Made by a program: the position numbers and the translations under genes
The notes under the pieces: generated by a model
Seen by the model: only the letters and a program-made list of their open reading frames with translations
What the model was told of the DNA's origin: nothing
Database searches by the model: none
In this document: positions 11,432 through 53,661 of the stretch, one piece after another
How the letters are laid out: each line of letters starts with the position of its first letter
Numbering within the stretch: position 1 is the first letter of the stretch
Source: Pararhizobium gei
GTDB taxonomy: Bacteria; Pseudomonadota; Alphaproteobacteria; Rhizobiales; Rhizobiaceae
Reading direction: 5' to 3'
Assembly: GCF_029223885.1 (NCBI RefSeq)
Contig: NZ_CP119409.1
Location: 832,001-896,000, forward strand
Length of the DNA: 64,000 nucleotides

Positions 11432-11458
11432 AAGGGGGCCGGAAATTCCGGCCCCCTT
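11432..11458 (-). terminator. Strong intrinsic terminator of the second RTX gene
   Basis: A 13-bp perfect stem AAGGGGGCCGGAA/TTCCGGCCCCCTT; read on the minus strand it is followed by TTTGTTTATG. It lies 30 bases beyond the stop of the upstream RTX gene, so the two RTX genes are probably separate transcripts. Confidence 0.85.
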
Positions 11459-11488
11459 CTTGCAGCATCAATGTTTTTCCTGAAGTGT

Positions 11489-13756: not shown

Positions 13757-14092
13757 GTTAAGCCCTCCGAAGACAGTTAGAATCTACATTTTCTATTGAA
13801 CTCAATTCCTGTAACAACTCCAAGACATAACGTCCGCATCACTGAAACTGAGATAAGGTCGCGCCTCCACGCAGCAACTAAATGGTCGCCGTTTCAAACA
13901 GGAAGGACACGTGATTTCGGTATTACGCTATGTTCGTCGGTATTTGGATTTCGGGCAAGACTCCTTGCCCGTGAATATTTCTGCACTGCGATATCCGAGA
14001 TGGTTCAAAAGCCAGATTTGAAATTTGAACCCACGGCAACTTTCGAAAATATGTCTTATATCAAATGACTTTAATACAGCAATCGGAGAAGG
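13757..14092. other. AT-richer spacer upstream of RTX gene
   Basis: 336 bases between the RTX start and the stop of the minus-strand glycosyltransferase gene. It is less GC-rich than its surroundings and should hold the RTX promoter. A 90-codon + strand frame (13796-14068) has no ribosome-binding site and no recognisable content. I see no hairpin with a T-tract. Confidence 0.5.
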
Positions 14093-15340: not shown

Positions 15341-15527
15341 GAACGCCTCAAAATCACGGTCTTGAATATCTTTATAGTGTATATTGATCGACTGAGTTGG
15401 CGTCACATCGCAACGCATGTGCACGATGATCCGACAGCCCGCGAGATTCAAGCGGCATTTTCAGGCTTATTCAGTGGACACGACGATTCACGCATGCCCT
15501 CCGGCAAGCATCGATCCCGGTCGGGGA

Positions 15528-16160: not shown

Positions 16161-16361
16161 GTTGGGATCTCCAAAAGGCAGCAAGGCGCCGCGCCGAAGA
16201 TGGTTCGACACCGACGAGGGGAGTGAAAGAGGCATTTCAAGGATATGCGCATCAGCCGGAAACCATGGTGCAGCGCATCAATCATCGCGATTCAAAAGGC
16301 TTGAATCAAGCAAAATATGTAAGCATTGCTGACCTATTCGATCTTCGCAAGAAAAGATCGT

Positions 16362-17306: not shown

Positions 17307-17454
17307 CGCGTCGGCGCCTCTTGGTGCTGTTGGCCGTTTCTCGCGTGCAGGCATTGAAATGGCAAGGGGCGATTTGGCGGCAGGCATCGGCGGGTCACCG
17401 CTTGCAGCAGGCCTCGAGTGGCTTTATGTGAGGCAAAACAGGAGTGATGCGGCC

Positions 17455-28816: not shown

Positions 28817-28959
28817 AGTCCGTTCCCCGAAATGCCGATGCCCCAGCCGCGCGTGATCCTCTTCGCCGGCGATGAAAGCGTCAAGTTGTTTGCGGCTATA
28901 CGCTGGTTTCCTCTGGACCTTCAGGACTTTGCAGACTTCGCTATGCCGTGGTTTTGGCC

Positions 28960-38677: not shown

Positions 38678-38842
38678 ATGACCGAATTTACCTGCCCAAG
38701 ACACCGTAAGACGGCGAAGCCTGCGGCTGCGCGGTCCGCTGCGGAGCGTCGGGCGGGACCTCCGCGTGCCATTTCCCGTTTTTCGATCCTGCCGCTGATC
38801 GCCGCAGATCGGATGAATGCCTTTGGCGGGGGGCGTGTATGA
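38678..38842 (+). CDS. Possible 54-aa leader ORF coupled to rfbF (doubtful)
   Basis: A 54-codon frame whose stop overlaps the rfbF start as ATGA, the same junction used by real genes downstream. The product is Arg/Ala-rich and matches nothing I know, and no convincing ribosome-binding site precedes it. It may be chance. Confidence 0.25.
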
Positions 38843-39609
38843 AAGCCGTCATTCTCGCCGGCGGTCTTGGATCGCGCATCGCGGAAGAAACGCATCTTCG
38901 CCCCAAGCCGATGGTGGAGATCGGTGGTCGGCCGATCCTGTGGCACATCATGAAGCTCTACTATGCCCATGGCGTGCGCGACTTCATCATCTGCTGTGGC
39001 TTCAAGGGCTACATGATCAAGGAATATTTCGCCAATTACGGCCTGCACATGTCGGACATCACCTTCGACCTCCAGCAGAACAGCATCGAATTCCACCGCC
39101 AGAGCGCGGAAAACTGGCGTGTCACCCTGGTCGATACCGGCGAGAATTCGATGACCGGTGGCCGCCTCAAACGCGTTGCCTCCTATCTCAAGAACGAAGA
39201 TGCCTTCTGCTTCACCTATGGCGATGGCGTTACCAATGCCGATATCGGCGCGACCATCGCCTTCCATAAGAGCCATGGCAAGCAGGCGACGGTCACGGCG
39301 GTGCGCCCGCCCGCCCGCTACGGTGCCCTGCAGCTTGATGGCAACGAGGTTCAGGGCTTCATCGAAAAACCGGAAGGCGAGGGCGGCTTTATCAATGGCG
39401 GCTTCTTCGTGCTTTCGCCGCGCTGCATCGACCGGATCGATGCGGATCACACGAGCTGGGAAGGGGAGCCCTTGATGGGACTGGCCAAGGATGGCGAGCT
39501 TCGGGCCTATCTGCACGAAGGCTTCTGGCAGCCGATGGACACGCTGCGCGACAAGAATCTTCTCGAAACCCTGTGGCAAAGCGGCTCCCCGCCGTGGAAG
39601 AGCTGGTGA
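38839..39609 (+). CDS. rfbF: Glucose-1-phosphate cytidylyltransferase
   Basis: 256-residue nucleotidyltransferase making CDP-glucose. N-terminal signature [17 protein letters not shown] followed by [19 protein letters not shown]; metal and sugar site [29 protein letters not shown]. First committed enzyme of the CDP-6-deoxysugar pathway. The stop overlaps the rfbG ATG (TGATG). Confidence 0.95.
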
Positions 39610-40694
39610 TGCCAATGAAAAGCGAATTCTGGCGCGGCAAACGCGTCCTGGTCACGGGCCATACCGGATTTAAGGGAAGCTGGCTGACGTTGTGGCTTCG
39701 CGAGTTGGGAGCCGAGGTATCCGGCCTTTCCCTTGCGCCGCAAACCAGTCCTTCGCTGCATCTCTTGCTGAGTGGCGCTGTCGATACCGGGGGTATCATC
39801 GATATCCGCGACCGCGACGCTGTGGTTCACCAGGTCGTGAAGACCAAGCCGCAGATCGTCTTCCATTTGGCGGCGCAGGCGCTGGTCCGGGCGGGGTACC
39901 GCAATCCAGCGGAGACATACGACGTCAACGTGCTCGGCACAGCCAACGTGCTCGATGCCCTCAGGCTGTCACAGGACGTGCGCTCCATTGTCGTCGTCAC
40001 CACCGACAAGGTCTATCACAACGCCGAAACCGGTCTCGCCTTCATGGAGAGCGATCCGCTCGGCGGGCATGATCCCTACAGCGCCAGCAAGGCGGCGGCG
40101 GAGATCGTCGCAGCGAGCTATCGGGCGTCATTCTTCGCTGCCCGGAAAGTCGGCCTTGCGACGGCGCGGGCCGGCAATGTTATCGGCGGCGGCGACTGGG
40201 CGGAAGACCGGCTGATCCCCGATGCCGTCAGGGCGTGGCAGAACGGCGAAACGCTCAATGTGCGCCGTCCTCGGGCGGTTCGCCCCTGGCAGCATGTGCT
40301 GGAGCCGCTCGGCGGGTATATCGGACTTGCCGAACGCCTGTGGCACGCGCCGGAAGGTGTCGAAAGCTATAATTTCGGCCCGGACCATGGCGACGCGGCC
40401 TCCGTTGGCGCCGTGCTGAAGATGGCGGAGCGGCATTTCGGCGGCGGCGCCATGCAACTGGGCGACGGATCGGAAGGACCTCACGAGGCCGGCTATCTGG
40501 TTCTTGACAGTGCCAAAGCCAGGGCGGAGCTCGACTATAAGCCGCGCTGGCGGCTTGCCGAAACGGTCAAGCGCACGATGGACTGGTACCGGGCTCAAGG
40601 TCAGGGCAGAAGCGCGCTCGATCTTTGCCTTGCGGATATTCGCGATTTTGCCGGACTTTCCGTGGAAAACGCGCCGTTGAGGGCGGCCGGATGA
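39609..40694 (+). CDS. rfbG: CDP-glucose 4,6-dehydratase
   Basis: 361-residue extended SDR: VTGHTGFKGSWLTLWL, TTDKVYHN, catalytic YSASKAAAE, NVIGGGDWAEDRLIPD and RPWQHVLEPLGGY are classic RfbG. Makes CDP-4-keto-6-deoxyglucose. The ATG at 39609 overlaps the rfbF stop by one base. An earlier in-frame ATG at 39573 lies inside rfbF. Confidence 0.95.
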   Translation: MPMKSEFWRGKRVLVTGHTGFKGSWLTLWLRELGAEVSGLSLAPQTSPSLHLLLSGAVDTGGIIDIRDRDAVVHQVVKTKPQIVFHLAAQALVRAGYRNPAETYDVNVLGTANVLDALRLSQDVRSIVVVTTDKVYHNAETGLAFMESDPLGGHDPYSASKAAAEIVAASYRASFFAARKVGLATARAGNVIGGGDWAEDRLIPDAVRAWQNGETLNVRRPRAVRPWQHVLEPLGGYIGLAERLWHAPEGVESYNFGPDHGDAASVGAVLKMAERHFGGGAMQLGDGSEGPHEAGYLVLDSAKARAELDYKPRWRLAETVKRTMDWYRAQGQGRSALDLCLADIRDFAGLSVENAPLRAAG

Positions 40695-41254
40695 GCGGAC
40701 GTTTCGAGGCGGTCGAAACACCGCTGCAGGGTTTGCTGGTGCTGACCCGCAAGGCGGTGACGGACGACCGCGGCTTCCTTTCACGGTTGTTCTGCGACGA
40801 GGATTTACGCGCCTTCGGCTGGCAGGGACGCCTTGCGCAGCTGAACGAGACCGGCACCGTGCATCGCGGAACGGTTCGCGGCATGCATTTCCAGCGTCCG
40901 CCGCATGCGGAGATCAAGCTGGTGACCTGCACGCGCGGCCGCATCCTCGATGTCGCAGTCGACATCCGCGAGGATTCACCGACATTTCTCCAGCATGTCG
41001 CTGTCGAGCTATCTGAAGAAAACGGCCGCTCGCTTCTCATTCCCAAGGGTTTTGCGCATGGTTTCCAGGCGCTGAGCGACGATGTCAGGATGATCTACGC
41101 GCATTCCGAGCCCTACTCGGCTTCGGCCGAAGCCGGGCTTCATCCGCAGGACGCGGCACTCGGCATCGACTGGCCCCTGCCGGTCGTCCATCTCTCGCTG
41201 CGGGACGCCGCGCATCCGCACCTCTCGCAGGGTTACCGTGGAGTCGCCGCATGA
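40691..41254 (+). CDS. RfbC/RmlC-type 3,5-epimerase acting in the CDP-sugar pathway
   Basis: 187-residue cupin of the dTDP-4-dehydrorhamnose 3,5-epimerase family: GTVRGMHFQRPP (catalytic His), CTRGRILDVAVDIRE, and LLIPKGFAHGFQAL. No dTDP-rhamnose genes are nearby and it is joined by ATGA overlaps to rfbG and to the C-methyltransferase gene, so its likely substrate is the CDP-4-keto-6-deoxyhexose. Whether it epimerises C3, C5 or both cannot be told. Confidence 0.88.
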   Translation: MSGRFEAVETPLQGLLVLTRKAVTDDRGFLSRLFCDEDLRAFGWQGRLAQLNETGTVHRGTVRGMHFQRPPHAEIKLVTCTRGRILDVAVDIREDSPTFLQHVAVELSEENGRSLLIPKGFAHGFQALSDDVRMIYAHSEPYSASAEAGLHPQDAALGIDWPLPVVHLSLRDAAHPHLSQGYRGVAA

Positions 41255-42480
41255 AATGCCGTCACTGCGGTTCGACGCATATGGTGCCGTTTCTCGACCT
41301 CGGCACGGCTCCGCCATCGAACTCCTATGTCGATGCCACCATGCGTCACATGCCGGAGCTCTGGTATCCGCTGGTGATCCGCTGCTGCGGTGAATGCCGT
41401 CTGGTGCAGACGGAAGATTTCGCCGATCGCGAAACCTTCTTCTCGTCGAGCTACGCCTATTTCAGTTCCTTCTCCACGTCGTGGCTCGACCATGCCCGCC
41501 GCTATGTCGCCGATATGCAGGCACGTTTCGGCCTGACGGAAGCCTCGCAGATCGTCGAAATCGCCGCCAATGACGGTTATCTCCTGCAATATGCGAGAGA
41601 GCGGGGCATCGGCTGCCTCGGCATCGAACCGACGGCCAGCACCGCGGCAGCGGCCCGGAAGAAGGGCATCGAGATCGTCGAGGAGTTTTTCGGTGTCGAA
41701 CTCGGCGAAAGGCTTGCGGCGGAGAGACAATCCGCCGACCTGATGGTGGCCAACAATGTGTTGGCCCATGTGCCTGACATCAACGATTTCGTTGCCGGCT
41801 TCGCGCGTCTGCTGAAACCACAGGGCGTCGCGACCTTCGAGTTTCCGCATCTCCTCAACATGGTGCGCGAGGCTCAGTTCGATACCGCCTATCACGAGCA
41901 TTATTCCTATCTTTCGCTGACGGCAGTGAAGCGGGTCTTCGAGGCCAATGGGCTTTCGGTGTTCGACGTCGAAACCACGCCGTGGCACGGCGGCAGCCTC
42001 AGGGTGTTCGCGCAGCGCAGCGATACCGGCGGGCACCAGGCAACAGCTGCCGTGGTAGCAACGTTGGACACCGAGCGCGCGGCGGGCATGCTTGAGGATA
42101 AATTCTACGCCGATTTCCAGGAGGCTGCGCAGACGGTACGCGACGGCTTCCTGGAATTCCTGATCGAAAGCCGGCGCGCGGGCCTCAAGGTCGCCGCCTA
42201 TGGCGCTGCGGCAAAGGGCAATACGCTCTTTAACTTCGCCGGCATCAAGCCCGATCTCATTGCCTTCGTCGTCGACAAGAACCCCGCCAAGCAGGGAACG
42301 CTGCTACCGGGAAGCCGAATTCCCGTCGTTACGGAAGACGTGCTGAAAACCGAAAAACCGGAAAGGGTCGTTATCCTGCCATGGAACATACAGGCCGAAA
42401 TCAAACAGCAGCTTTCGTATATCAGCGATTGGGGTGGCAAGTTCGTGACGGCGGTGCCGTCACTGACGGTGCACCGGTGA
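41251..42480 (+). CDS. NDP-sugar C-methyltransferase, TylC3/NovU-like
   Basis: 409 residues in three parts: an N-terminal zinc-binding domain (CRHCGS and CCGEC), a SAM-binding methyltransferase core (IVEIAANDGYLLQYARERG, VANNVLAHVPDINDF), and a C-terminal domain (AYGAAAKGNTLFNF, FVVDKNPAKQG). YHEHYSYLS carries the His/Glu residues expected of the sugar C-methyltransferase active site. The family puts a methyl on C3 (or C5) of 4-keto-6-deoxysugar nucleotides. Coupled to the epimerase by ATGA. Confidence 0.9.
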   Translation: MKCRHCGSTHMVPFLDLGTAPPSNSYVDATMRHMPELWYPLVIRCCGECRLVQTEDFADRETFFSSSYAYFSSFSTSWLDHARRYVADMQARFGLTEASQIVEIAANDGYLLQYARERGIGCLGIEPTASTAAAARKKGIEIVEEFFGVELGERLAAERQSADLMVANNVLAHVPDINDFVAGFARLLKPQGVATFEFPHLLNMVREAQFDTAYHEHYSYLSLTAVKRVFEANGLSVFDVETTPWHGGSLRVFAQRSDTGGHQATAAVVATLDTERAAGMLEDKFYADFQEAAQTVRDGFLEFLIESRRAGLKVAAYGAAAKGNTLFNFAGIKPDLIAFVVDKNPAKQGTLLPGSRIPVVTEDVLKTEKPERVVILPWNIQAEIKQQLSYISDWGGKFVTAVPSLTVHR

Positions 42481-42573
42481 CCGAGGCCGTCATCGCCGAC
42501 CTGCCGGAGACGACGGTCGACGTCCCGATCAAGAAGACGGGAACCCAAGGCCTGAAGATCGGTTGATTTCGGG

Positions 42574-42879
42574 CTATTCCGTCGTTTCGCCGAGTTCGAC
42601 TTCCTCGCGAGCGATCGAATGGCGGATCAGTTGCGCCCATAGGTCTTCGTAGAAATCCGGATCGATGCCTACGGCCTCGGCATTGCTCCGCGCATTGCGC
42701 CGGACCTCATCGACACGCGCCGGGATGTCCGCCTTCAGCCCGATCGGTTTCTTGATTTCGGCCGCCCGGCCGATATAGGCCCAGCGCTCTGCGAAAAGCG
42801 CCATCAACGCCTTGTCCAGACGATCGATCTCGGCGCGGATATCCTCCATCGAGGTGCAATCTGCCGGGCTTTTTTGCAT
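42574..42879 (-). CDS. Chorismate mutase, AroQ class
   Basis: 101 residues, single-domain helical AroQ fold: IRAEIDRLDKALMALFAERW, YIGRAAEIKK (active-site Lys), VDEVRRNAR, then YEDLWAQLIRHSIAREE. Converts chorismate to prephenate, or could be a PchB-type isochorismate lyase. The start could be 42879 or 42849. It is alone on the minus strand in a run of + strand glycan genes, so it is probably a housekeeping gene around which the locus is arranged. Confidence 0.85.
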   Translation of the reverse strand: MQKSPADCTSMEDIRAEIDRLDKALMALFAERWAYIGRAAEIKKPIGLKADIPARVDEVRRNARSNAEAVGIDPDFYEDLWAQLIRHSIAREEVELGETTE

Positions 42880-43045
42880 GCATCGTCTCCATACCGGTGC
42901 GGACGGCGAAGGGAGAGCCTCGCCGTCTGCTGCTTATCAAGCGATCCGCTACATGGAAAGCCAGGAAAACCCTGCAAGACGCAAGGTCGCGGGCAAGCCT
43001 CGCGAAAGCCCTCAACTTTATGTATGGGGCAAACGGAGAGATTTT

Positions 43046-44260
43046 ATGTTCGCCCAGCCGAAACTGACGATCTGTGTGCCCTCGCGCAACCGCCAGCGTT
43101 ATTTCCAGGAAACGATCAGAAGCCTGGTGATCAACCTCAGGACGGATGTGGAATTTGTTTTCGCGGACAATTCCGACGATCCAGCGGTCATGAACGATTT
43201 TATGGAAGACGTGATCGGCGACCCACGCGTGAAATATCTGCCGTCGGCGGAGCGCGTGTTTTCGATGGTGGAGAACTGGGAACGCTGCGTTGAGGCTGCG
43301 ACAGGTGAATTCATCTGCATGATCGGCGACGACGATTACGTCGATGTTACCGTCGCGGACCTGATTACCCGGTCGCAGGCCACCCATGTGGTCGACGTCT
43401 TCGTCTGGAGTCGGCTCACCTACAATTGGCCAGGTAATCGACCCAACCACTGCAACGTCTCAGCGCCGCTTGGCACCGAGGTGCACCGGTTGCCCCGCAA
43501 GTGGCTCTACGAGGAATTCTTCTCGTGGAAAGGAAACACTGCGACGCCGAACATGGCCTTCGGGTTCTACCACGGCGCGGTTTCCAAGCGTGTCATGGAC
43601 AAGATCAAGGCAAAGTTCGGCGGCAAATACTGCGAATATCCGGTCGTCGATTTCGAGAATGTCTGCAAGGTCATCGTCACGGCTGAGCATATGTTCTACT
43701 CCGAGCGCGCCTTCTCGGTGCTCGGTTCCTGCGCGGAGAGCAATTCCGCAAAAATCAAGATGATGGACAAGGCAAAGGATCAGCATGCGGCCTTCATGGC
43801 CGAGACGGGCCGCAACATCGATGAAGATCCGCACATGAAGGATTTTCCGTTTCCATCGCTGCTCGGTCTCGCCGCCTGTATTGCGCAGACGCAGCACTGG
43901 TTCCTGACGAAGTACGGCTATAGCGAGATAAAGGGCTGGGAAGCGAATTTCGCCGAGGCCTGTGGCCTGAGCTGCGGCATCATGGGCACGCGCGCCGATT
44001 ACGATCGGACCGTTGCCGGCTACCGGTCCGCCTTCGGCCGGTGGAAAAACGGTCGCTATCTCGCAAACTTCAAACCGGCCCCCTATTCCGAGCCGACCGA
44101 TGCCCTGTTCTTCACAGGCGTTTCGAACAATCACCTCTATCTCGATGAAGAGATCGGCGGTGTCAGTACCCCGGCTGAGCTTTACAATCTCGTGAACCAG
44201 AGTCTTGCCCCGGAGCCGGAACTCATCCTGAATTTCGAACAGCATTTCAAGGTCGCCTGA
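43046..44260 (+). CDS. GT2-type (GT-A) glycosyltransferase
   Basis: 404 residues from the ATG at 43046 (CGGAGAG five bases upstream); a long open extension before it looks non-coding. GT-A signature LTICVPSRNRQRYFQETIRSL and metal-binding GDDDYVD. Downstream is a segment FFSWKGNTATPNMAFGFYHG also found in the glycosyltransferase at 52534. It should transfer a sugar from an NDP donor to a glycan or protein acceptor that cannot be identified. Confidence 0.88.
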   Translation: MFAQPKLTICVPSRNRQRYFQETIRSLVINLRTDVEFVFADNSDDPAVMNDFMEDVIGDPRVKYLPSAERVFSMVENWERCVEAATGEFICMIGDDDYVDVTVADLITRSQATHVVDVFVWSRLTYNWPGNRPNHCNVSAPLGTEVHRLPRKWLYEEFFSWKGNTATPNMAFGFYHGAVSKRVMDKIKAKFGGKYCEYPVVDFENVCKVIVTAEHMFYSERAFSVLGSCAESNSAKIKMMDKAKDQHAAFMAETGRNIDEDPHMKDFPFPSLLGLAACIAQTQHWFLTKYGYSEIKGWEANFAEACGLSCGIMGTRADYDRTVAGYRSAFGRWKNGRYLANFKPAPYSEPTDALFFTGVSNNHLYLDEEIGGVSTPAELYNLVNQSLAPEPELILNFEQHFKVA

Positions 44261-44314
44261 TCCCTTTGGGCGGCCGGGTCTGAAGGCGCCATTACATCGA
44301 AAAGGACGCAACGC

Positions 44315-45175
44315 ATGATACAGAATGAAGCGATCATCGCGGCCTCGGCACGCGAGGACTTTGCCGCCAAGGGCTACACCATGCTGCCGCAGTTTTACGA
44401 TGTGCAGCGCGACGTGGCGCCGATTCAGGAAGGGATCCGCGTCATTCTGGAACTGCTTTGCCGGAAATACGACGTGGATGCGCCGACCGACACCGCCTGG
44501 AACGCCATGACCCAGGCCTATCCTGCCCTGATCGCCAAAAACCGCGCCTGGGGCGGCGAGGTCTATGATGCGGTCAAGCAGATACCCGCTTTCATGCAGA
44601 TCGTTACCAAGACCGCCAACCAGATCGTCTTTCAGCATCTGCGCCCGGGCTCCGTGCCGGGCATCGCCGCCGGCGGCTACGGTATCCGGATCGACAATCC
44701 TGGCGAGGAGAAGTTCCGGGCGCAGTGGCATCAGGAGTTTCCGGGCCAGTTGCGCAGCCTCGACGGTATCGTGTTCTGGACGCCGCTTCTGCCCGTCACC
44801 GCCGATATGGGGCCGGTGCAGATCGCCGAGGGATCCCATGCCGAAGGCCTGATCCCCGTTTATCGGGACGATGCCGGGCTTGGTAAGACAGGCGCCTATG
44901 CCCTGTACATGGACAAGTGCGACGAGCGACTGGAGAAATACGAGAAGGTGGCGCCGCTGACGAACCCCGGCGATCTCATCCTGATGGATTTCCTCACCAT
45001 GCACCAGGGCGGGCACAACACCTCCGCCATGCCGCGCTGGAGCATCCAGTTCCGCTATTTCAACTTCGCCGATCTGCTCGGCACCCGCATCGGCTGGGCC
45101 GGCTCGTTTGCCGCCGGCGTCGATTTCAGCAAGTTGATGCCGGAACTGGTCACGGACGGCGAGGTCGCGGCATGA
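44315..45175 (+). CDS. Phytanoyl-CoA dioxygenase (PhyH) family oxygenase
   Basis: 286 residues. Double-stranded beta-helix Fe(II)/2-oxoglutarate oxygenase: QWHQEFPGQ gives the proximal His139 and Glu141 (HxE instead of the usual HxD). DMGPVQIAEGSH is the family's substrate loop, and His230 with Arg241 or Arg247 (MHQGGHNTS, RWSIQFRYF) would complete the metal and 2-oxoglutarate sites. AAAAGGA precedes the ATG. Likely hydroxylates a sugar or its acyl group in this locus. Coupled by ATGA to the next methyltransferase. Confidence 0.87.
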   Translation: MIQNEAIIAASAREDFAAKGYTMLPQFYDVQRDVAPIQEGIRVILELLCRKYDVDAPTDTAWNAMTQAYPALIAKNRAWGGEVYDAVKQIPAFMQIVTKTANQIVFQHLRPGSVPGIAAGGYGIRIDNPGEEKFRAQWHQEFPGQLRSLDGIVFWTPLLPVTADMGPVQIAEGSHAEGLIPVYRDDAGLGKTGAYALYMDKCDERLEKYEKVAPLTNPGDLILMDFLTMHQGGHNTSAMPRWSIQFRYFNFADLLGTRIGWAGSFAAGVDFSKLMPELVTDGEVAA

Positions 45176-46329
45176 CAGCCTGCCGTGTCTGCGGATCGCC
45201 GATTGCCGAGGCCTCCTATGAGGCGTCGGCACCGGCGCTGACCTCGATGATGGCCTTCATCGACATTCCGACGCTGGCCTTCGTCTGTGACGAATGCGGG
45301 CATGCACAATGCGCCGATCTGCCCGATATCGACAGCTTCTACGACACCACCTACCGGATCTCTCTGGAATCCGACGATCACGACCAGATTTTTGCGATTG
45401 CCACCGATGGCAGCCCGATCTACCGGACCGATCATCAGGCCGCGACGGGCCTGGCACTGATGGACATTCCTGTCGGCGCCAATATTCTCGACTATGGATC
45501 GGGCAAGGCGACGACGCTGCAAAAGATGTGCGCGGTGCGTCCGGACCTTATCCCGCACGTCTTCGACGTCAGCCGGGATTACATGCCGGCCTGGGATGGC
45601 TGGGTCGAAAGCCGCAATCAGGCGACCTACACCGTGCCGGACGTCTGGAACGGGCGCTTTCAGGCGATCATCAGCCATTTCGTGATCGAGCACGTTGCCG
45701 AACCCGTCCCGTTTCTGAAGACGCTGCACGGCCTGCTCGCTCCAGGCGGCCGGCTTCTTCTGTCGATGCCCGATGTCGCCGCCAATCCGGGCGACATGAC
45801 GGTTGCCGACCATCTCAACCATTTCAGCGTGCCCTCGCTCAAGCGGGCGCTGTCGCTTGCCGGCCTCGCTCTGGACGTGATCAACAGCGACGCTTTTCCG
45901 GGGGCATTCTTCGCCGTTGCCGTTCGCGCCGACGAAGTGCCGGCGACTGAAGAGAACCGGCAGGAGATCGCCGCGGCTGCCGCGGCGGCCAAGGATATCT
46001 GTGCTTTCTGGAAAAACGCGACGCGCAACCTCGATGGCGCCGCCAAGCAGTTTTCGGGCAAGCGCGCCGCCGTCTACGGATCCGGATTCTACGGCAGCTG
46101 GATCTGCAGCCGGATCGAGGCCGATGTCGATTTCCGGGTGTTCCTCGACCAGAACCCCAAGCTTCAGGGATCGACGCATTTCAATCGTCCTGTGATCGCG
46201 CCGGCGAACCTCAATGACGATGTCGATGTGGTGTTCGTCGGGTTGAACCCGCTCAAGGCGCGGGCGGCCCTTGCCGGACAGGCGGCGTTGCAGCGGCCGG
46301 GGCTTGATATTGTCTGGATCGACGCCTGA
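45172..46329 (+). CDS. Zinc-finger class I methyltransferase with C-terminal Rossmann domain
   Basis: 385 residues. The N-terminus has CRVCGS and CDECGHAQC metal ligands, motif I ILDYGSGKATTLQKM, and ISHFVIEHVAEP. The C-terminal VYGSGFYGSWICSR segment resembles a nucleotide-binding fold, as in C-methyltransferases of the Methyltransf_13/14 type. Distantly related to the C-methyltransferase at 41251 but lacks its YHEHYSY stretch, having DHLNHFS instead. Substrate unknown, probably a sugar. Confidence 0.82.
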   Translation: MTACRVCGSPIAEASYEASAPALTSMMAFIDIPTLAFVCDECGHAQCADLPDIDSFYDTTYRISLESDDHDQIFAIATDGSPIYRTDHQAATGLALMDIPVGANILDYGSGKATTLQKMCAVRPDLIPHVFDVSRDYMPAWDGWVESRNQATYTVPDVWNGRFQAIISHFVIEHVAEPVPFLKTLHGLLAPGGRLLLSMPDVAANPGDMTVADHLNHFSVPSLKRALSLAGLALDVINSDAFPGAFFAVAVRADEVPATEENRQEIAAAAAAAKDICAFWKNATRNLDGAAKQFSGKRAAVYGSGFYGSWICSRIEADVDFRVFLDQNPKLQGSTHFNRPVIAPANLNDDVDVVFVGLNPLKARAALAGQAALQRPGLDIVWIDA

Positions 46330-46447
46330 GCGAGGCGCGCCGGGACAGGTTCGCGAAAGGCTTTACCAATAGGGTCTTGTCGTCCGCCTGACGGATCAAG
46401 GCTGCCATGGGGGCGGTCTTCCGGTCGATGCAGACGATGCCCGAGAC

Positions 46448-47161
46448 ATGAGCCGCACGATCGTCATTTCGCAGTCGATGTATTTTCCCTGGGTGGGCCT
46501 GCTCGAGCAGATCCGGCTTGCGGATATCTTCGTCCACTATGACGATGTGCAATATTCCAAGGGCAGCTTCACCAACCGGGTGCAGGTCAAGGGTGCCAAC
46601 GGCGTCGGCTGGATGACCCTACCATTGCGCGACTATCATTTCGGCCAACACATCGACCAGGTCATGCTGGACGACCGGACGGACTGGCGCGGCAAACACC
46701 GTGAAATCCTTCGGCAAGCCTATCGGAAGGCGCCGTTCCGCGATGACATGCTGGCGCTGGTCGACGGCGTCTTTTCGCTGGAGGTGCGGTCTGTCGCGGA
46801 TATCTCGCGCCACTCGATGCTGGCACTCGCCGGCTATTTCGGCCTTGAACCACAGTTCCTGTCGGCCGGCGATCTTCCCGTGCCGGGCTCCAGCAGCGAA
46901 CGTGTCTGCGACATCGTCTCCTATCTGAAGGGCTCATCCTACGTGACGGGTCACGGCGCACGGAATTATCTGAACCACAGCCTATTCGAGGACAGGGGCA
47001 TTTCCGTCGATTACATGCGCTATCAATGCACGCCCTATCCACAATTGAACGGCGACTTTACCCCTTACGTGACCGCGCTTGATCTCGTCGCGAACTGCGG
47101 CGCGGACGGTGCAAAATACATTCACTCCGGAACGATCGGTTGGAAGGAATTCACCCAATGA
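46448..47161 (+). CDS. WbqC-like family protein
   Basis: 237 residues: VISQSMYFPWVGLLEQIRLA, HYDDVQYSKGSFTNRVQVKG, GWMTLPL, then TGHGARNYL. WbqC proteins are encoded in O-antigen and other glycan loci and their chemistry is not firmly known. The ATG has a poor ribosome-binding site after a 118-bp gap. First of five genes joined by ATGA overlaps. Confidence 0.87.
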   Translation: MSRTIVISQSMYFPWVGLLEQIRLADIFVHYDDVQYSKGSFTNRVQVKGANGVGWMTLPLRDYHFGQHIDQVMLDDRTDWRGKHREILRQAYRKAPFRDDMLALVDGVFSLEVRSVADISRHSMLALAGYFGLEPQFLSAGDLPVPGSSSERVCDIVSYLKGSSYVTGHGARNYLNHSLFEDRGISVDYMRYQCTPYPQLNGDFTPYVTALDLVANCGADGAKYIHSGTIGWKEFTQ

Positions 47162-47883
47162 AAACAGAAAATCTCGATGCAGTGTCATCGGAATATCTCC
47201 CGAACGCCGCGACGGCGATCGAGAACGATCTCATCCTCAACTGGTATCCGGAGCGCATCATCAAGCGGTTTGGCACGGTCGGCTCCATTCTCGAACTGGG
47301 GATCGGCCACGGATACACGCCCGGCCTCTTCAATGCCGCTTGCGACCGGCATGTGATCATCGAGGGATCGCAGCTCGTCATCGACCTGTTCAAGGAAAGA
47401 GCCCCTGATTTCAAGGGCGAAGTCGTCTTCTCCTATTTCGAGGAGTTCGAGACCGAGGAACGGTTCGACGTGATCGTCATGGGTTTTATCCTGGAGCATG
47501 TCGATGATCCGGGCATGCTGCTCGACCGCTACAAAAAATTCCTGAAGCCGGGTGGGCGCATGTTCGTGGCGGTTCCCAATGCCAAGTCGATGAACCGTCG
47601 GCTGGGCGTCGAGCTCGGCAAGATTGACGACATCTATGCGCTGAACGCCAATGACCATGCGCTGGGCCACAAGCGCCAATATTGCCGCGATACGCTGAAG
47701 CAGGAGATACAGAACCACGGTTACATTGTGAGCCTGGAAGAGGGCATCTATCTGAAACCCCTGCCGCTGGGCGTTCTGAAAACATTGCCGGATTTCAAGG
47801 AGAATCTCGATGCGATGCTGCGCGTCGGTGTGGATTTTCCTGATCTTTGCGTGGCGCTCCTGATGGAAGCCAGGCTGCAATGA
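47158..47883 (+). CDS. Class I SAM-dependent methyltransferase
   Basis: 241 residues. Motif I ILELGIGHGYTPGLF, acidic VIIEGSQLVIDLF, FILEHVDDPGML and LKPGGRMFVAVPNAKSMNR form a compact Methyltransf_23-like enzyme without extra domains. Start and stop both overlap neighbours by four bases, so it works with the WbqC-like protein and the epimerase. Substrate unknown, probably a sugar hydroxyl. Confidence 0.87.
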   Translation: MKTENLDAVSSEYLPNAATAIENDLILNWYPERIIKRFGTVGSILELGIGHGYTPGLFNAACDRHVIIEGSQLVIDLFKERAPDFKGEVVFSYFEEFETEERFDVIVMGFILEHVDDPGMLLDRYKKFLKPGGRMFVAVPNAKSMNRRLGVELGKIDDIYALNANDHALGHKRQYCRDTLKQEIQNHGYIVSLEEGIYLKPLPLGVLKTLPDFKENLDAMLRVGVDFPDLCVALLMEARLQ

Positions 47884-48752
47884 AAACCGCAGCGGTCATC
47901 GGCGCGCGATCGATGCTGGGCAGTCAATTGACCGCGCAGTTGGCAGATCGCGGCGTCACGGTCTTCAAGGTGGGTCGGTCGGCCGCCAATGACGACGTTC
48001 ATTTCGATCTCAGGCAGGCGGAAGCCGATGTACCCGGCGGTCTCTCCGCCGATGTCGTCTTCCATTGCGGCGCCAGTTTTGCCGGAGACGACAGCGAAGG
48101 CATCCGGACGAACTTCACCGAAAACGCATCAAGCGCTCTCGGCGTCGCGGATCTGGCGAAAGCAATGGGTGCAGGCACGCTCATCTATGCGGGCTCGGTG
48201 TTTTCAAACCCGAGCACCGACAATTTCACCTCCTACGGCCTGACGAAAGCCATTGCCGAGCAGGTCCTCGAATGGACCATCGCCCGGCAGGGCGGGCGGT
48301 TTTGCAGCCTGCGCCTGCCGCAACTCTACGATGTCGAGGGCCGGTGCTGCGCGCATCAACCCTGGTTCGGCCGTATCATCGCCTATGCGTCGCGCGGGCA
48401 GAATATGCGCATGCCGCGCTCGCAAGGTCCGCGCAATTTTCTGCATGTGCGCGACGCCGCCAGCCTTATGATCCGTGCGGCTGACAGTGCGGTCAGGGGC
48501 GTGCTGGATATCGCGCATCCGCAATCGCTGACGGTGGATGCTATCGCTGAGATGGCCTACGAGATTTTCGGGCAGGGTGGCAAGGTGGTGATCGCGCAGG
48601 AAAAGACACCGTTCCGCGCCATTCATTTTCCCGATGGCGGCGAAGCCTTCCGGCGGCTTGATCTCGTGCCGATGGTAGAAATGCACGAGGGCATCCGCAT
48701 GATCAGGGATGCCGGTACGGCAGGGGCTTTCGGGCCGATGGATCTGTCATGA
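47880..48752 (+). CDS. NAD(P)-dependent sugar epimerase/reductase (SDR)
   Basis: 290 residues with a Rossmann N-terminus (VIGARSMLGSQLTAQLA), YAGSVFSNPS and SYGLTKAIAE (Tyr-Lys pair), and GPRNFLHVRDAA typical of nucleotide-sugar epimerases and 4-ketoreductases. A 4-ketoreductase that finishes the CDP-4-keto-6-deoxysugar is otherwise missing from the locus, and this gene is the best candidate. That assignment is an inference from context. Confidence 0.82.
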   Translation: MKTAAVIGARSMLGSQLTAQLADRGVTVFKVGRSAANDDVHFDLRQAEADVPGGLSADVVFHCGASFAGDDSEGIRTNFTENASSALGVADLAKAMGAGTLIYAGSVFSNPSTDNFTSYGLTKAIAEQVLEWTIARQGGRFCSLRLPQLYDVEGRCCAHQPWFGRIIAYASRGQNMRMPRSQGPRNFLHVRDAASLMIRAADSAVRGVLDIAHPQSLTVDAIAEMAYEIFGQGGKVVIAQEKTPFRAIHFPDGGEAFRRLDLVPMVEMHEGIRMIRDAGTAGAFGPMDLS

Positions 48753-49744
48753 CGGAGGGTGTGCCGGGAGCGTCGGCAGCGCCAATCACCGTCGTCGTCA
48801 CGGCCGTGGGAGCGCTGATCGGCCAGGGGATCATCACCTCGCTGCGCAAGGTGGGGCTGACCGTCCGGGTTATCGGCGTCGATCGCAATGCCGGCGGCAT
48901 CGGTCCCTATTGGTGCGACGGTTTCCGTGCCAAGCCTGCCGTCGATGAGGGCTCGCACGAGTACCTCGATTTCTGGATGCGGCTGATAGAGGACGAAAAG
49001 GTCGATCTTGTCCTGCCGGGCCTGGAATCCGACGTGCTGTTCTTCAGCCGGAACCGCGCTGCTTTCGCCGATCTCAGTGCGCGCATCGTTCTCAACAATC
49101 CGGCGCTTGTCGAACTGGCGCAGGACAAATGGGATTTCGGCGCAGAACTCGCGCGGCTTGGCTTTCCGGTCATTCCCGCGCGTCTCCAAGGAAGCTGGGC
49201 GGAGTGCGCAGCGGAATTTGGCGCGCCGCTCCTGCTCAAGCCGCGCCGGGGCAATGGCTCGCGGGGGATCGCGGTGCTGAGGGACGAGGTGGATTTCGAC
49301 TACTGGAGCCGCAAAGCGAAAGACGCTTTCATGATCCAGAAATTCATCGGCAGCGACGAGCAGGAGTTTACCGTCGGCGCCTTCGGCTTCGGCGACGGCA
49401 CGGCGCTGCCGCCAATCGTCTTTCGCCGCACGCTTTCGGTCGCCGGCAACACGCAATATGCCGAGGTGGTCGACCATCCCGTGCTGGCCACGATTGTCGA
49501 GAAGATGGCGGCGCTCTTCAAACCGGTCGGCCCGACGAACTACCAGTTCCGCATGGACGGCGAGACACCCTATCTGCTGGAAATCAATCCGCGCTTTTCC
49601 TCCAGCACGTCGCTGCGCGCCGCCTTCGGCTACAACGAGGCGGCGATGGCGGTCGAGTGGTATCTGCATGGCCGCAAACCGGCGCCACCGCAGATCACGC
49701 CCGGGCGTGGCTGGCGTTACTATGAGGATTATGTGGTGCGATGA
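48749..49744 (+). CDS. ATP-grasp ligase, carbamoyl-phosphate-synthase-like
   Basis: 331 residues. Pre-ATP-grasp Rossmann N-terminus (VTAVGALIGQGIITSL, VIGVDRNAGGIG), ATP-binding LLLKPRRGNGSRGI, IQKFIGSDEQEFTVG and metal-binding YLLEINPRFSSSTSLR. The family forms an acyl-phosphate and joins a carboxylate to an amine or similar. In a glycan locus it may acylate or amidate a sugar with an amino acid. ATGA overlaps on both sides. Confidence 0.87.
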   Translation: MTEGVPGASAAPITVVVTAVGALIGQGIITSLRKVGLTVRVIGVDRNAGGIGPYWCDGFRAKPAVDEGSHEYLDFWMRLIEDEKVDLVLPGLESDVLFFSRNRAAFADLSARIVLNNPALVELAQDKWDFGAELARLGFPVIPARLQGSWAECAAEFGAPLLLKPRRGNGSRGIAVLRDEVDFDYWSRKAKDAFMIQKFIGSDEQEFTVGAFGFGDGTALPPIVFRRTLSVAGNTQYAEVVDHPVLATIVEKMAALFKPVGPTNYQFRMDGETPYLLEINPRFSSSTSLRAAFGYNEAAMAVEWYLHGRKPAPPQITPGRGWRYYEDYVVR

Positions 49745-50430
49745 TCGCCATCATTTCCGATATTCACGGCAATCTGCCGGCACTGCGGGCGGTGCTCGAC
49801 AGGATCGATACGTTCGGTTGCCGCACCGTCGTCTCGCTGGGCGATGTCGTCGGGTATTATGCCGAGCCCGGCCCCTGTATCGACCTGCTGCGCGAACGCG
49901 GGATCGTCAATATTCTTGGCAATCACGATCATTACATCGTCAGCGGCGAGGGCTGTCCGCGCTCGAAACTTGTCTCGGATATCACCGAGTATCAGCGCGG
50001 GATCATCTCGGCGGATCAGGTTTCCTGGCTTGCGCAATCGCGCCGCTATCTTGTCGATGGCAGCACCTGGTTCATGCATGGCGGATTGCTCGACCCTGTC
50101 GACCAATATCTCTATTCGATCTCACAGGCCGATATTCCCCCGGAGGCGGATACGCTGTTTGCCGGGCACACGCATGTGCAGGTGCTTCTCGATGTCCATG
50201 GCAAGACTTTCTGCAATCCGGGCGCCGTCGGCCAGCCACGCGACGGCGATCCGCGTGCCGCCTTTGCTGTCGTCACGGATGGCCGCATCGAACTGCAGCG
50301 TGTTGCCTACGATATCGATGGGACGGCCTTTCGGATGAAGCAGGCCGGATTTCCCGCCAGATGTTACGAAAATCTCTATATCGGCGCGCAGATTGGTGGC
50401 CGAATCGACCGGATCACGCTGGCTGAGTGA
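49741..50430 (+). CDS. YfcE/MJ0936-like metallophosphoesterase
   Basis: 229 residues with the full dinuclear site: IISDIHGNLPAL, LGDVVGY, LGNHDHY, FMHGG, GHTHVQ, then CNPGAVGQPRDGD. Cleaves phosphomono- or diesters of unknown substrate. Last of the five ATGA-linked genes, so it probably acts on a phosphorylated intermediate or side product of the pathway. Confidence 0.88.
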   Translation: MIAIISDIHGNLPALRAVLDRIDTFGCRTVVSLGDVVGYYAEPGPCIDLLRERGIVNILGNHDHYIVSGEGCPRSKLVSDITEYQRGIISADQVSWLAQSRRYLVDGSTWFMHGGLLDPVDQYLYSISQADIPPEADTLFAGHTHVQVLLDVHGKTFCNPGAVGQPRDGDPRAAFAVVTDGRIELQRVAYDIDGTAFRMKQAGFPARCYENLYIGAQIGGRIDRITLAE

Positions 50431-50544
50431 CGCGTGGGGGGCAGTTATCGCCACTTTCTCCGGAGGGGGGTAAGCATCTCCGGCTGCGGGCTTCGTGGCG
50501 CAAGCAATAGAAATTCATCTGCAACAAATGTCCGCCCGACGGAA

Positions 50545-51309
50545 TCAAACCGGGTCCGGCAGGCGGACGCAGTATCCGCCCGGCGAGGAGGCGAGCACCA
50601 GCTTGCCGTTGATCACCGGATCGACTTCAAAACTGTCCGTTTCCTTCAGGTAATCGTTGAGCGCGCTCAACGGCTCGTCGCCGCTGAACCAGATCTTGGA
50701 CCGCTTTTTCGGTGCGTTTTCGGCTGTCACATGGGCTGCGGCGGTGTCGGCGACGACGAGATAGCAGCCGGGGGTGACGAGTGGCCCGTAGGCGCGGCAT
50801 TCGGCCAGCACATGGCTGTAGGAATGGTCGCTGTCCAGCACCACCATGACCCTTGCGCCATCAGGGATGAGGTCACGCACGGCCTGTAAAGTGCTGTCAT
50901 CGACGGAGCCGCCCTCGATGAGGGCGATGCGGCTTGTCATCGGGTGGGTCTCGATCGCCTCGCGATTATGGGCGCGGATATCGATATCGACGCCGATCAC
51001 CTTGCCCTGATCCTTGCCGGTCATGGCGAGCAGCGATGCCATGAAGATCATGGAGCCGCCGCGTGCGACGCCGGTTTCGATGATGATGTCGGGCCGGGTG
51101 TTCCAGATGACTTCCTGGGTGGCCATGATATCGGCGGGCAGCTGGATAATCGGCACGCCCATCCAGCTCCAGAGATAGGAGTAGTCATAGGTGTCGAGCG
51201 CCAGCATCGTATCGATCGACTGCTTGAAGACCTCTGTGTCGCGGCCAAGCGCAAGGCACATGTCGCGTTTATGCGCTTCGAATTCCTGGCGGTCGTCTTT
51301 GACTGTCAT
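50545..51309 (-). CDS. CmcI/rhamnosyl O-methyltransferase family protein
   Basis: 254 residues from MTVKDDRQ. SAM-type Rossmann fold: IIIETGVARGGSMIFMASLL, VIGVDIDIRAHN, VMVVLDSDHSYSHVLAE (metal-binding Asp/His), YLVVADTAAAH. The family is named for cephalosporin hydroxylase CmcI but includes mycobacterial rhamnosyl O-methyltransferases, so sugar O-methylation is the likely role. Forms a minus-strand unit with the aminotransferase and glycosyltransferase upstream, 64 bp away. Confidence 0.85.
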   Translation of the reverse strand: MTVKDDRQEFEAHKRDMCLALGRDTEVFKQSIDTMLALDTYDYSYLWSWMGVPIIQLPADIMATQEVIWNTRPDIIIETGVARGGSMIFMASLLAMTGKDQGKVIGVDIDIRAHNREAIETHPMTSRIALIEGGSVDDSTLQAVRDLIPDGARVMVVLDSDHSYSHVLAECRAYGPLVTPGCYLVVADTAAAHVTAENAPKKRSKIWFSGDEPLSALNDYLKETDSFEVDPVINGKLVLASSPGGYCVRLPDPV

Positions 51310-51373
51310 ATGTGTAAACGCCTTTGTCTTTCCGATTGTCTGCCCGACCGGCCGGCGGGATCGCAGTCTCGTT

Positions 51374-52537
51374 TCAAGCGGATTTCGCCAGATAGGGTTT
51401 GTCGGTCGCCGCCGATGTGCGGCTTGCGACAAGGTTCACGATGACATCCGTCACACGGCCGATCTCGTCCTCGGTCATATCGTGATAGCTGGGCAGGTTG
51501 ATGGCCCGCTCGGGAATATCCCAGGCATGGATGTTGCTGCGCCTGTCGTCGAACATCGGCAGGCTGGTCAGGGGGTGGAAGAAGACCCGTGCATCAATAT
51601 TGGCGTCGCTGAAAGCCTGTTGCAGAATGTCCCTTGTTATTCCCATGCCGCGATCGAACACCGCTGTCGGCATCCAGGCGCCATTCACCGTGCCGGGAAC
51701 TTGGGGGTTGAGCGAAATGCCGTCAAAGCTGCCCAGTCGTGCGGCGTAGCTTGCGAGGATCTCGCGCTTGCGCGCCGTCAGCGCCTCGATCCGTTCCATC
51801 TGGCCGCAGCCAAGGGCCGCCTGGATGTTCGACATCTTGTATTTGAAGCCGATCTCATCCGGCCAGAACTGCTTCGTCTGGTTCCGTGCCCGGCCGTGAT
51901 TGGAGAGCGTCAAGACTTTTTCATAAAGTGCGGCGTCGCTGGTGACGAACATGCCGCCTTCGCCTGTCGTGAGCGTCTTGGTGCCGTGGAACGAGAAGGT
52001 GCCGAACAACCCCATCGAGCCCGCCCGCCGACCTTTCCAGACGGAACCGATGGCTTCGGCCGCGTCCTCGATCACCGGAATGCCGTGGCGCAGGCCGATG
52101 TCCAGAAGCCGGTCCATGTCGCAAAGATTGCCGTAAATATGGGTGGCAATAATCGCCCGGGTCTTCGGCGTGATGTGCCGCTCGACATCCGCCGGATCTA
52201 TGCACCAGCTGTGAGGGAGGATATCCAAGAAAACCGGGGTCGCGCCGAGGTGGACGATGGGCGCTACCGTTGCGATCCAGTTAGTGTCGGCGAGAATGAC
52301 CTCGTCGCCATCGCCAATGCCAAGTGCGGCCAGGCCCATATGCATGGCGCCGGTGCAGCTGGACGTCGCGATGGCATGACCGGCGCCGAGATGCGCAGCG
52401 AAATCCTTCTCGAACCGGACGATATAGTCGTAGCAGCGTTCTCCCCAGCCATTGGCGGCGGCATCCGTCGCATAGGCGACTTCAAGCTCCGTGATCGACG
52501 GCTTGGTGTAGGAAATGCGGGGTAGGTGCCCGCTCAT
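51374..52537 (-). CDS. DegT/DnrJ/EryC1/StrS sugar aminotransferase
   Basis: 387 residues. PLP-binding TSSCTGAMHMGLAALGIG, VIEDAAEAIGS, and Schiff-base Lys in FHGTKTLTTGEGGM. The family aminates keto-sugar nucleotides at C3 or C4, for example perosamine synthases. The substrate could be the CDP-4-keto-6-deoxysugar from RfbG or another keto sugar. The ATG overlaps the stop of the glycosyltransferase gene (ATGA). Confidence 0.9.
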   Translation of the reverse strand: MSGHLPRISYTKPSITELEVAYATDAAANGWGERCYDYIVRFEKDFAAHLGAGHAIATSSCTGAMHMGLAALGIGDGDEVILADTNWIATVAPIVHLGATPVFLDILPHSWCIDPADVERHITPKTRAIIATHIYGNLCDMDRLLDIGLRHGIPVIEDAAEAIGSVWKGRRAGSMGLFGTFSFHGTKTLTTGEGGMFVTSDAALYEKVLTLSNHGRARNQTKQFWPDEIGFKYKMSNIQAALGCGQMERIEALTARKREILASYAARLGSFDGISLNPQVPGTVNGAWMPTAVFDRGMGITRDILQQAFSDANIDARVFFHPLTSLPMFDDRRSNIHAWDIPERAINLPSYHDMTEDEIGRVTDVIVNLVASRTSAATDKPYLAKSA

Positions 52538-53661
52538 GCCGCTTTGCCGTCCGCGTCGCGCAATGTGCCGCCACACATGAGACCAACAGGCGCCATCATA
52601 TGGCGGGCGATCTTGAAAAACTCCAGAGGGGTTTGCGCGCCACCGAGAAAGCGGTCCACCAGCAGGGCGCCGTCATGCAGGCCGCGACGGCTGTCCACCG
52701 GCCTGGTGTCATGGAATTCGGGCCGGAAGAAAGGTGCGAGGCGTCCGCCATCGAAGACGGTCAGCGCCGCGTAATAAGCGTTGCCCTTGGCGACATAGTT
52801 TTCGCGGGTCTTTTCCATCATGCAGTCGATCATGACAGCGCGAACGAAGGCCTCGCCGGCACCGGTCCATTCGGACTGAAGCTCGCGCAGGACATGGAAC
52901 TGCACTTCGGCGACCGCGCCGGCAAGGCCGAGACCGGAATGAAAGGGGAAATTCCATGGGTGAAGCGGGGGCTCGGCGATGTACGGCACGGTGCCGATCG
53001 CCGACATCGGCCGGGGGCTGAAGGCGAGATCATTGGCAAACAGCAGAACTTTCGCGGCCCATTCATATTGCGGAACCGGCGTCGACCAGTCCTGTGGCTT
53101 CGGCATTTGCAGCAGCGCATCGATCAGCGAGCGCCGGATCGCCGCATGATAGAGGCCGAACGGCATTTTCGGGCTGTTCAGGCTGCCTTCCCAGTAGAAG
53201 AACGTCTTGAGCATCGCAGTCTTGTCGAGTGTCTCCACCTGGTAGCTTGCCGGAATGGCAACCGAGGCCGCCTTTCCGGGCACGGCTTGTCCGTCGATCT
53301 GGAAGGCGTTCCAAGCTAGGGCATCGACGCCCGGCGAACTGGTTTCCAGGAAAGAAAGCATGATGGGAAGGTCGCGTTCCAGCACGTCACCCGGCTTAAT
53401 CAATGTCGCCCAGTCGCCGCTGGTGGCTTCAAGCGCCCGGTACCATAGCAATTGTCGCGAAATTCCATCTTCCGCATCCCGAATTTTTAGCCGTGCGTCC
53501 GCCGCAGCGAGCCCTGACACTTCAGCCGAAGGCTGCAGAGCTGAAGGCTTGGCGAGAACGATCTCGATATCTGCGAGAGGATTTTCAAGGAGCGAGGTCA
53601 GCAGCGGGAAAACATCCTGCGCGCCGGCGTCCAGGGGAATGCAGATCGAGAGCTTGGTCAT
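52534..53661 (-). CDS. Divergent GT2-like glycosyltransferase without DXD
   Basis: 375 residues from MTKLS. GT-A-like N-terminus LSICIPLDAGAQDVFPLL, but the position of the metal-binding DXD is occupied by LIKPGDVLERD. The downstream module FFYWEGSLNSPKMPFGLYHA matches the glycosyltransferase at 43046 (FFxWxG...PxMxFGxYHxA). It is either a metal-independent or changed glycosyltransferase, or an inactive partner. First gene of the minus-strand unit. Confidence 0.75.
   Translation of the reverse strand: MTKLSICIPLDAGAQDVFPLLTSLLENPLADIEIVLAKPSALQPSAEVSGLAAADARLKIRDAEDGISRQLLWYRALEATSGDWATLIKPGDVLERDLPIMLSFLETSSPGVDALAWNAFQIDGQAVPGKAASVAIPASYQVETLDKTAMLKTFFYWEGSLNSPKMPFGLYHAAIRRSLIDALLQMPKPQDWSTPVPQYEWAAKVLLFANDLAFSPRPMSAIGTVPYIAEPPLHPWNFPFHSGLGLAGAVAEVQFHVLRELQSEWTGAGEAFVRAVMIDCMMEKTRENYVAKGNAYYAALTVFDGGRLAPFFRPEFHDTRPVDSRRGLHDGALLVDRFLGGAQTPLEFFKIARHMMAPVGLMCGGTLRDADGKAA

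Follow-up and report, generated by a model that had tools for sequence, protein, structure and literature searches.

The closest analogue, in its logic, among the worked-out relatives of the locus described here is the viosamine island of Pseudomonas syringae pv. tabaci (PMC3927599), which lies away from the structural flagellar genes and provides for a 4-amino-4,6-dideoxy sugar (VioA), its N-acylation (VioB and partners), its methylation (VioM) and its transfer to the flagellin glycan (VioT). Genes for CDP-4-keto-6-deoxy-D-glucose were also reported in the enterobacterial flagellin glycosylation islands of type 23, in four strains (PMC4875605). We analysed a window of 64 kb of the Pararhizobium gei genome (C1:832001-896000, in a genome of 4.75 Mb; all locus coordinates are positions within this window), in which a glycan locus extends over positions 38839-53661, from rfbF to a glycosyltransferase gene that we call GT2b. 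Its product would be a CDP-4-amino-4,6-dideoxy-C-methyl-hexose, N-acylated, O-methylated and transferred by soluble family-2 glycosyltransferases (GT2), likely to flagellin or another exported protein. We give even chances to this reading taken as a whole, and consider its core, a CDP sugar of the amine branch, likely. The type of pathway was already known; the new parts are the mutual exclusion of amination and ketoreduction and the ligase logic proposed for the WbqC protein.

We surveyed 141 loci carrying the C-methyltransferase (CMT) of this locus. Named genomes supplied 80 of them, the nearest relatives, with near-duplicates among them; the other 61 came from 398 genomes drawn evenly from the phylum, 61 of which had the CMT, the window's own genome counted in. 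The two sets may share genomes. Beside the CMT, the aminotransferase StrS was found alone in 37 loci, a ketoreductase-like short-chain dehydrogenase/reductase (SDR) alone in 77, both in a single one (L171) and neither in 26. The thresholds (55% identity for StrS, 35% identity and 70 bits for the SDR) were fixed only after the gene orders had been inspected, and the weaker StrS matches of L156 and L168 were scored as absent. In a tree of 115 CMTs (that of the window and those of 114 loci in which one of the two genes, but not both, was present), a quick tree with several long branches, the StrS/SDR label switched at least 11 times, eight of these switches being forced by well-supported branches. 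Because the two genes have repeatedly replaced each other and almost never occur together, they appear to share one intermediate. Judging from gene content, the natural candidate would be the 4-ketone, either reduced or aminated, and the SDRs beside the CMT are putative 4-ketoreductases by their family (PF01370) and position. The product of the window locus is therefore probably a 4-amino sugar. The first-pass annotation had listed StrS among the downstream genes; since StrS and the SDR exclude each other across loci, we regard it as the key enzyme of the branch and not as an accessory. The genes of the locus are as follows.

38839..39609, plus strand: rfbF, glucose-1-phosphate cytidylyltransferase (TIGR02623, 447.8 bits, passing the cut-off of 300.25)
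39609..40694, plus strand: rfbG, CDP-glucose 4,6-dehydratase (TIGR02622, 455.1 bits, passing the cut-off of 278.45; GHTGFKG, TTDK and YSASK motifs)
40691..41254, plus strand: RmlC-type sugar epimerase (PF00908, 196.6 bits; aligned to 1dzr)
41251..42480, plus strand: CMT, TylC3/TcaB9-type C-methyltransferase (Methyltransf_13, _23 and _14; CxxC pairs, YHEH)
42574-42849, minus strand: chorismate-mutase-family gene between CMT and GT2a (TIGR01803, PF01817)
43046..44260, plus strand: GT2a, soluble family-2 glycosyltransferase (PF00535; GDDD, the DDD invariant in an alignment)
44315..45175, plus strand: PhyH-type Fe/2-oxoglutarate oxygenase (PF05721)
45172..46329, plus strand: MT2, CxxC/Methyltransf_23 methyltransferase (two CxxC pairs)
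46448..47161, plus strand: WbqC family protein, proposed BshC-like amide ligase
47158..47883, plus strand: MT3, class I methyltransferase (PF13489)
47880..48752, plus strand: window-type SDR, NAD-dependent epimerase/dehydratase family (PF01370)
48749..49744, plus strand: ATP-grasp ligase (NF009402, 235.2 bits, cut-off 218)
49741..50430, plus strand: calcineurin-like phosphoesterase (PF12850)
50545..51309, minus strand: CmcI/rhamnosyl O-methyltransferase family (PF04989, 220.8 bits versus 23.2)
51374..52537, minus strand: StrS/DegT sugar 4-aminotransferase (PF01041, 396.8 bits; PLP-binding lysine kept in the motif SFHGTKTLTTGEGG)
52534..53661, minus strand: GT2b, GT-A-fold paralogue of GT2a without the DDD motif (hhalign, Foldseek)

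All genes named in the first-pass annotation were recovered, with coding-like codon usage, from rfbF to GT2b; the chorismate-mutase-like gene had been overlooked. Open reading frames of that family (a cluster of 18) occupy the gap between CMT and GT2a in Pararhizobium-type loci and have no evident link to a sugar pathway. The plus-strand genes of the locus run from rfbF to the phosphoesterase gene in the order listed; the minus strand carries CmcI, StrS and GT2b. From rfbF to the CMT, successive genes overlap by 1, 4 and 4 bases, and overlaps of four bases also join PhyH to MT2, WbqC to MT3, MT3 to the SDR, the SDR to the ATP-grasp gene and the latter to the phosphoesterase gene; by their coordinates, StrS and GT2b share four bases as well. 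The flanking genes are mscL, an aminotransferase gene and galE upstream, and cydB and cydA downstream. The GC content of the locus was not distinct from that of the rest of the window.

The genes of the interior followed the amine branch. Among the 38 loci with StrS we found WbqC in 21, PhyH in 14, MT2 in 14, the ATP-grasp gene in 13, MT3 in 11, the window-type SDR in eight and a GNAT gene in seven, and each of these was found in none of the 103 loci without StrS. The phosphoesterase was present in 12 of the 38; of the 103 others, only L073 gave a match, a weak one. FkbM, radical SAM, GT4 and MT40 methyltransferase genes were exclusive to the loci without StrS. CmcI occurred on both sides (27/38 and 62/103). 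The ATP-grasp and GNAT genes were never found in the same StrS locus and each was always accompanied by WbqC, PhyH and MT2 occupied an identical set of 14 loci, and all 11 loci with MT3 also had the ATP-grasp gene. Since PhyH, WbqC and ATP-grasp track the amine branch, this pattern favours a nitrogen-borne side chain over oxidation of the ring. Of the earlier proposal of an oxidised and possibly aminoacylated sugar, acylation is probable, and ring oxidation appears less likely than the N-linked side chain.

The frame around this variable interior was well conserved. The CMT was present in 24 of the 25 other genomes of the genus, and its nearest named relatives were those of Rhizobium herbae (91% identity) and Rhizobium giardinii (89%), followed by other Rhizobiaceae. 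As the first-pass annotation had suggested checking, synteny was compared across Rhizobiaceae, and the gene order recurred in loci of named genomes: mscL, the aminotransferase gene, galE, rfbF, rfbG, the epimerase gene, CMT and GT2a in Pararhizobium-type loci and in many others of the Rhizobiaceae, CmcI and GT2b standing at the opposite end. Between them stood the window-type genes in some loci, a GNAT gene replacing MT3, SDR, ATP-grasp and phosphoesterase in others, and in still others a different interior with FkbM-type methyltransferase, radical SAM and GT4 genes; the block was inverted in L062 and L064. Two further arrangements were observed. Some genomes of the genus have a second C-methyltransferase, 45-47% identical, elsewhere (G005, G012; L005-L180), and a plasmid of Peteryoungia desertarenae (L185) carries two rfbF-rfbG-CMT sets back to back, one of them with StrS and CmcI, near the trbB-trbD conjugation genes.

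For WbqC, the predicted fold gave a tentative match to BshC (4wbd) over 223 of 237 residues, at 13% identity. BshC, the putative cysteine ligase of bacillithiol synthesis, is thought to add cysteine to the amine of an amino sugar, with no activity in vitro shown as of a 2015 review (PMC4360819); unlike WbqC, it has an extra coiled-coil domain. Several observations weigh against this likeness and the side chain built on it: Foldseek alone gave no significant match in the PDB for WbqC, the Pfam matches of 10 WbqC proteins included no BshC family up to E 10, no PDB sequence matched, and the side chain is not universal, ten StrS loci having none of these genes and seven others CmcI alone (several of these loci are from Hoeflea). 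Against viral models, the predicted fold gave five matches at E <= 0.001, none of them named. On balance we somewhat favour the view that WbqC and the ATP-grasp enzyme build the side chain. A more general scheme is put forward only tentatively, in which WbqC (PF08889) would be a BshC-like ligase coupling an amino acid and the 4-amine of surface sugars, within a modular code: StrS or SDR at C4, WbqC if an amine is made, a GNAT or ATP-grasp cap, and decoration by PhyH-MT2 and MT3. Bacteria would exchange these modules in situ, within a single constant chromosomal frame, and so vary the CDP-linked C-methyl sugar borne by flagellin or a different surface acceptor. The open-access literature yielded no functional study of WbqC, occurrences of the string being listings and several arising by chance. 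The protein would here gain a testable function, and the gene list becomes a branch-point prediction that can be checked by one enzyme assay.

The individual enzymes agree with earlier proposals of a CDP-linked, C-methylated and O-methylated sugar. RfbF and RfbG pass curated equivalog cut-offs, and the CMT has all three domains (zinc-binding, PF08421; methyltransferase, PF13489; C-terminal, PF08484) and TylC3-type solved relatives, the best being 4rv9, 5t64 and 3ndi. The epimerase fell narrowly below the TIGR01221 rmlC equivalog cut-off (153.6 versus 155.75 bits). The nearest solved relatives of StrS are the perosamine synthases 3dr7 and 3bn1. MT2 shares the CxxC pairs and Methyltransf_23 with the CMT, its match to Methyltransf_14 being sub-threshold. 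CmcI belongs to the CmcI/rhamnosyl O-methyltransferase family and scored below the cut-off of the rhamnosyl O-methyltransferase equivalog NF045824 (89.2 versus 400). Solved relatives were only weak for the ATP-grasp enzyme, and there were none at E 0.001 for PhyH, so that no substrate can be read from either.

From these families and their distribution we infer the following order of reactions. RfbF would produce CDP-glucose and RfbG CDP-4-keto-6-deoxyglucose; the epimerase and the CMT would then fix the stereochemistry and introduce a one-carbon branch next to the keto group, more likely at C3 than at C5, and StrS would aminate the 4-ketone. WbqC could couple an amino-acid-like group to this 4-amine, the ATP-grasp enzyme could cap or extend the side chain (GNAT serving instead in related loci), and PhyH-MT2 and MT3 may hydroxylate and methylate it. 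CmcI would O-methylate the ring. Finally, GT2a, with GT2b as partner, would act in the cytoplasm and pass the sugar to an acceptor for which no flippase is required, flagellin or some other exported protein being the likeliest.

Two alternatives concern the sugar itself. A methyl branch at C5, with the rest of the pathway as above, would result from a NovW/NovU-like course of 3-epimerization followed by 5-C-methylation; the pair of epimerase and C-methyltransferase suits either order, and the epimerase is similar to both RmlC and NovW. The best solved matches of the CMT are 3-C-methyltransferases; all solved relatives found are of the 3-C type, with no solved 5-C enzyme among them, so that this comparison does not discriminate. 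CDP-vinelose, a CDP-linked C-methyl sugar, is 3-C-methylated, and we regard the C5 variant as unlikely. That the locus instead produces a soluble specialised metabolite would be in line with TylC3, TcaB9 and KijD1, which are antibiotic-sugar enzymes. This is highly improbable given that no polyketide or peptide synthase family was found among the scanned proteins of the window and that nearly every genome of the genus has the locus.

The acceptor was approached through the glycosyltransferases and the genomic surroundings of related loci. The first-pass annotation had counted two GT2 enzymes. This stands for GT2a, which aligns (27%, E 2e-16) to residues 999-1248 of a 1405-residue TPR-GT41-GT2 protein encoded beside flagellin genes. 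GT2b lacks a Pfam match and the DDD motif; it is a diverged paralogue of GT2a (hhalign probability 100) whose predicted structure matched GT-A enzymes of the SpsA/TarP/TarS type in Foldseek, and it may be a partner of GT2a or use another site. No membrane segments were noted by eye in either protein; no topology program was run. The CMT was located within 20 kb of a flagellin match (PF00669) in at least 12 of 60 sampled genomes, against 1.23 expected (P 2e-9 under random placement). For 35 of these 60 genomes the search was made twice, and weak matches elsewhere may be missing; PF00669 also picks up FlgL-type proteins, as in G152, where the nearest match (5.0 kb) overlaps a FlgL-like open reading frame and the flagellin is about 11 kb off. 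The chance expectation and the control described below were computed from position lists copied by hand. In the window's own family, G359 has the CMT near flagellin, with three flagellin open reading frames in the stretch and a core of the ketoreductase type. Flagellar genes lay within 12 kb of the CMT in 7/80 named and 7/61 sampled loci. Outside Rhizobiaceae, cores among flagellar genes were found in Methylobacterium/Beijerinckiaceae (L100, L103, L105, L110), Methyloversatilis (L107), a beta-proteobacterial assembly (L112), Noviherbaspirillum (L104) and Cupriavidus campinensis (L184). StrS-type cores accompany flagellar genes in L104, L124 and L128; in the last, flgK and flgL are followed by rfbF, rfbG, epimerase, CMT, StrS, WbqC, MT3, SDR, ATP-grasp, phosphoesterase and CmcI, with a flagellin just past the stretch. 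Glycosyltransferases with a TPR/GT41 part were found near cores in 13/80 named and 11/61 sampled loci; an initial count of 19/61 was too high, since in 8 of the 19 the match was confined to the GT2 end, and the assignment of a protein of L142 to this group was not supported. Just past the flagellar cluster of L182, positions 10131-15509 encode a WecG/TagA/CpsF-family glycosyltransferase and glycosyltransferase-like and flippase-like open reading frames, the flippase-like one without a Pfam match.

The occurrence of related cores within the flagellar clusters of other bacteria suggests a role in protein glycosylation, as the first-pass annotation had offered. Several results weigh against it. 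About 158 kb separates the end of the locus from the flagellins of this genome, which has no GT41 protein; the acceptor named here is for these reasons inferred, and flagellin is quite possible in this organism at somewhat less than even chances. In G003, G005, G007 and G025 of the genus, CMT and flagellin, both on one contig, are 121-188 kb apart, and L135, whose core comprises the complete window set, rfbF through CmcI, has its flagellins on other contigs. A control with rmlB (dTDP-glucose dehydratase) was also near flagellin above chance, in 3/48 genomes: a tendency to lie near flagellin clusters is shared by sugar genes generally, rmlB showing it less than the CMT (12/54 versus 3/48; Fisher p 0.027). 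The presence of flagellin was not enriched with the CMT (55/61 versus 275/337, p 0.14), and co-occurrence, not being significant, was dropped as evidence in favour of co-location alone. Finally, G150, G166 and G320 have full or nearly full cores with no flagellin among the matches listed, which also suits a sugar that caps or decorates a polysaccharide such as capsule or lipopolysaccharide (in its core or its O-chain). In that case GT2a and GT2b would act on a lipid-linked acceptor, with export genes lying elsewhere in the genome. The distance of the locus from the flagellar cluster fits this as well, as do three proteins of the Wzy_C/O-antigen-ligase type elsewhere in the genome and, by sequence resemblance, a chain-length-determinant-like open reading frame near the core in L101 and L108 and other sugar-nucleotide genes in L099, L113 and L108. 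We nevertheless hold it to be somewhat unlikely: as had been noted earlier, the locus has no polymer-export genes (flippase, polymerase and ABC exporter families were absent from its proteins and from the other scanned proteins of the window, most genes of which were covered by the profile scans), the genome has no Wzt_C protein, and StrS-type cores with the same side-chain genes stand in the flagellar clusters of L124 and L128. An acceptor that is exported but is not flagellin, for instance a secreted repeat protein of the RTX type, would agree with two RTX proteins beside a GT4 and a TPR-methyltransferase in the same window, with L111, where ABC-transporter- and HlyD-like open reading frames follow the core, and with L091, where a repeat protein does (open reading frames read directly, with no family search). 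These are single examples, whereas the flagellar association repeats in many lineages, and this acceptor appears improbable.

Elsewhere in the window, the minus strand of 8201-17387 encodes RTX-repeat proteins of 1025 and 755 residues near the GT4 and TPR-methyltransferase, a possible second protein-modification locus, and aromatic-amino-acid-lyase genes (HutH-type family; 21877-23412 and 27323-28978) flank a histidine-utilisation operon.

No known, fully described O-antigen island corresponding to this locus, which the first-pass annotation had allowed for, was found in the open-access literature. Compared with the window locus, the viosamine island differs in being dTDP-linked, in lacking the C-methyl branch and in an acylation based on acyl carrier protein, and its gene table contains no WbqC or ATP-grasp protein (PMC3927599). 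For the type 23 islands, the terms C-methyltransferase and WbqC are absent from the main text (PMC4875605). The virenose pathway proposed in silico for Coxiella resembles our locus in that a 4-keto-6-deoxy sugar destined for a surface glycan is C-methylated in TylCIII-like fashion, but it was proposed to be GDP- or TDP-linked, to end with a ketoreduction and to be part of the lipopolysaccharide (PMC3539893). In Sinorhizobium meliloti 1021, SMb21416-21418 on pSymB are listed as ddhA, ddhB and NDP-hexose 3-C-methyltransferase (PMC4053727); beyond this one table, no open-access description of these locus tags was found. That region (L188) also has CmcI and an epimerase nearby, but it is of the ketoreductase branch (SDR50), and the stretch retrieved gave no match to StrS or WbqC. 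Its set looks split, with rfbF-rfbG-CMT and, about 8 kb on, CmcI, an SDR, an acetyltransferase-like gene and the epimerase.

The CMT shares with the 3-C-methyltransferases TylC3, KijD1 and TcaB9 the same three-domain fold family over its full length; these act on dTDP-linked antibiotic sugars, whereas the window CMT sits with CDP-sugar enzymes. CDP-vinelose of Azotobacter vinelandii is a CDP-linked 6-deoxy-3-C-methyl-2-O-methyl hexose, a neutral sugar; the word vinelose occurred in no open-access paper that we found. Loci of the ketoreductase type with CmcI would fit this sugar, and the window locus differs from them by its amine branch. Flagellin glycans can matter for the recognition of plant-associated Rhizobiaceae by plants, and our results suggest that many proteobacterial flagella may carry CDP-linked C-methyl sugars. 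For vinelose-type sugars, CDP-linked and C-methylated, the locus supplies candidate genes.

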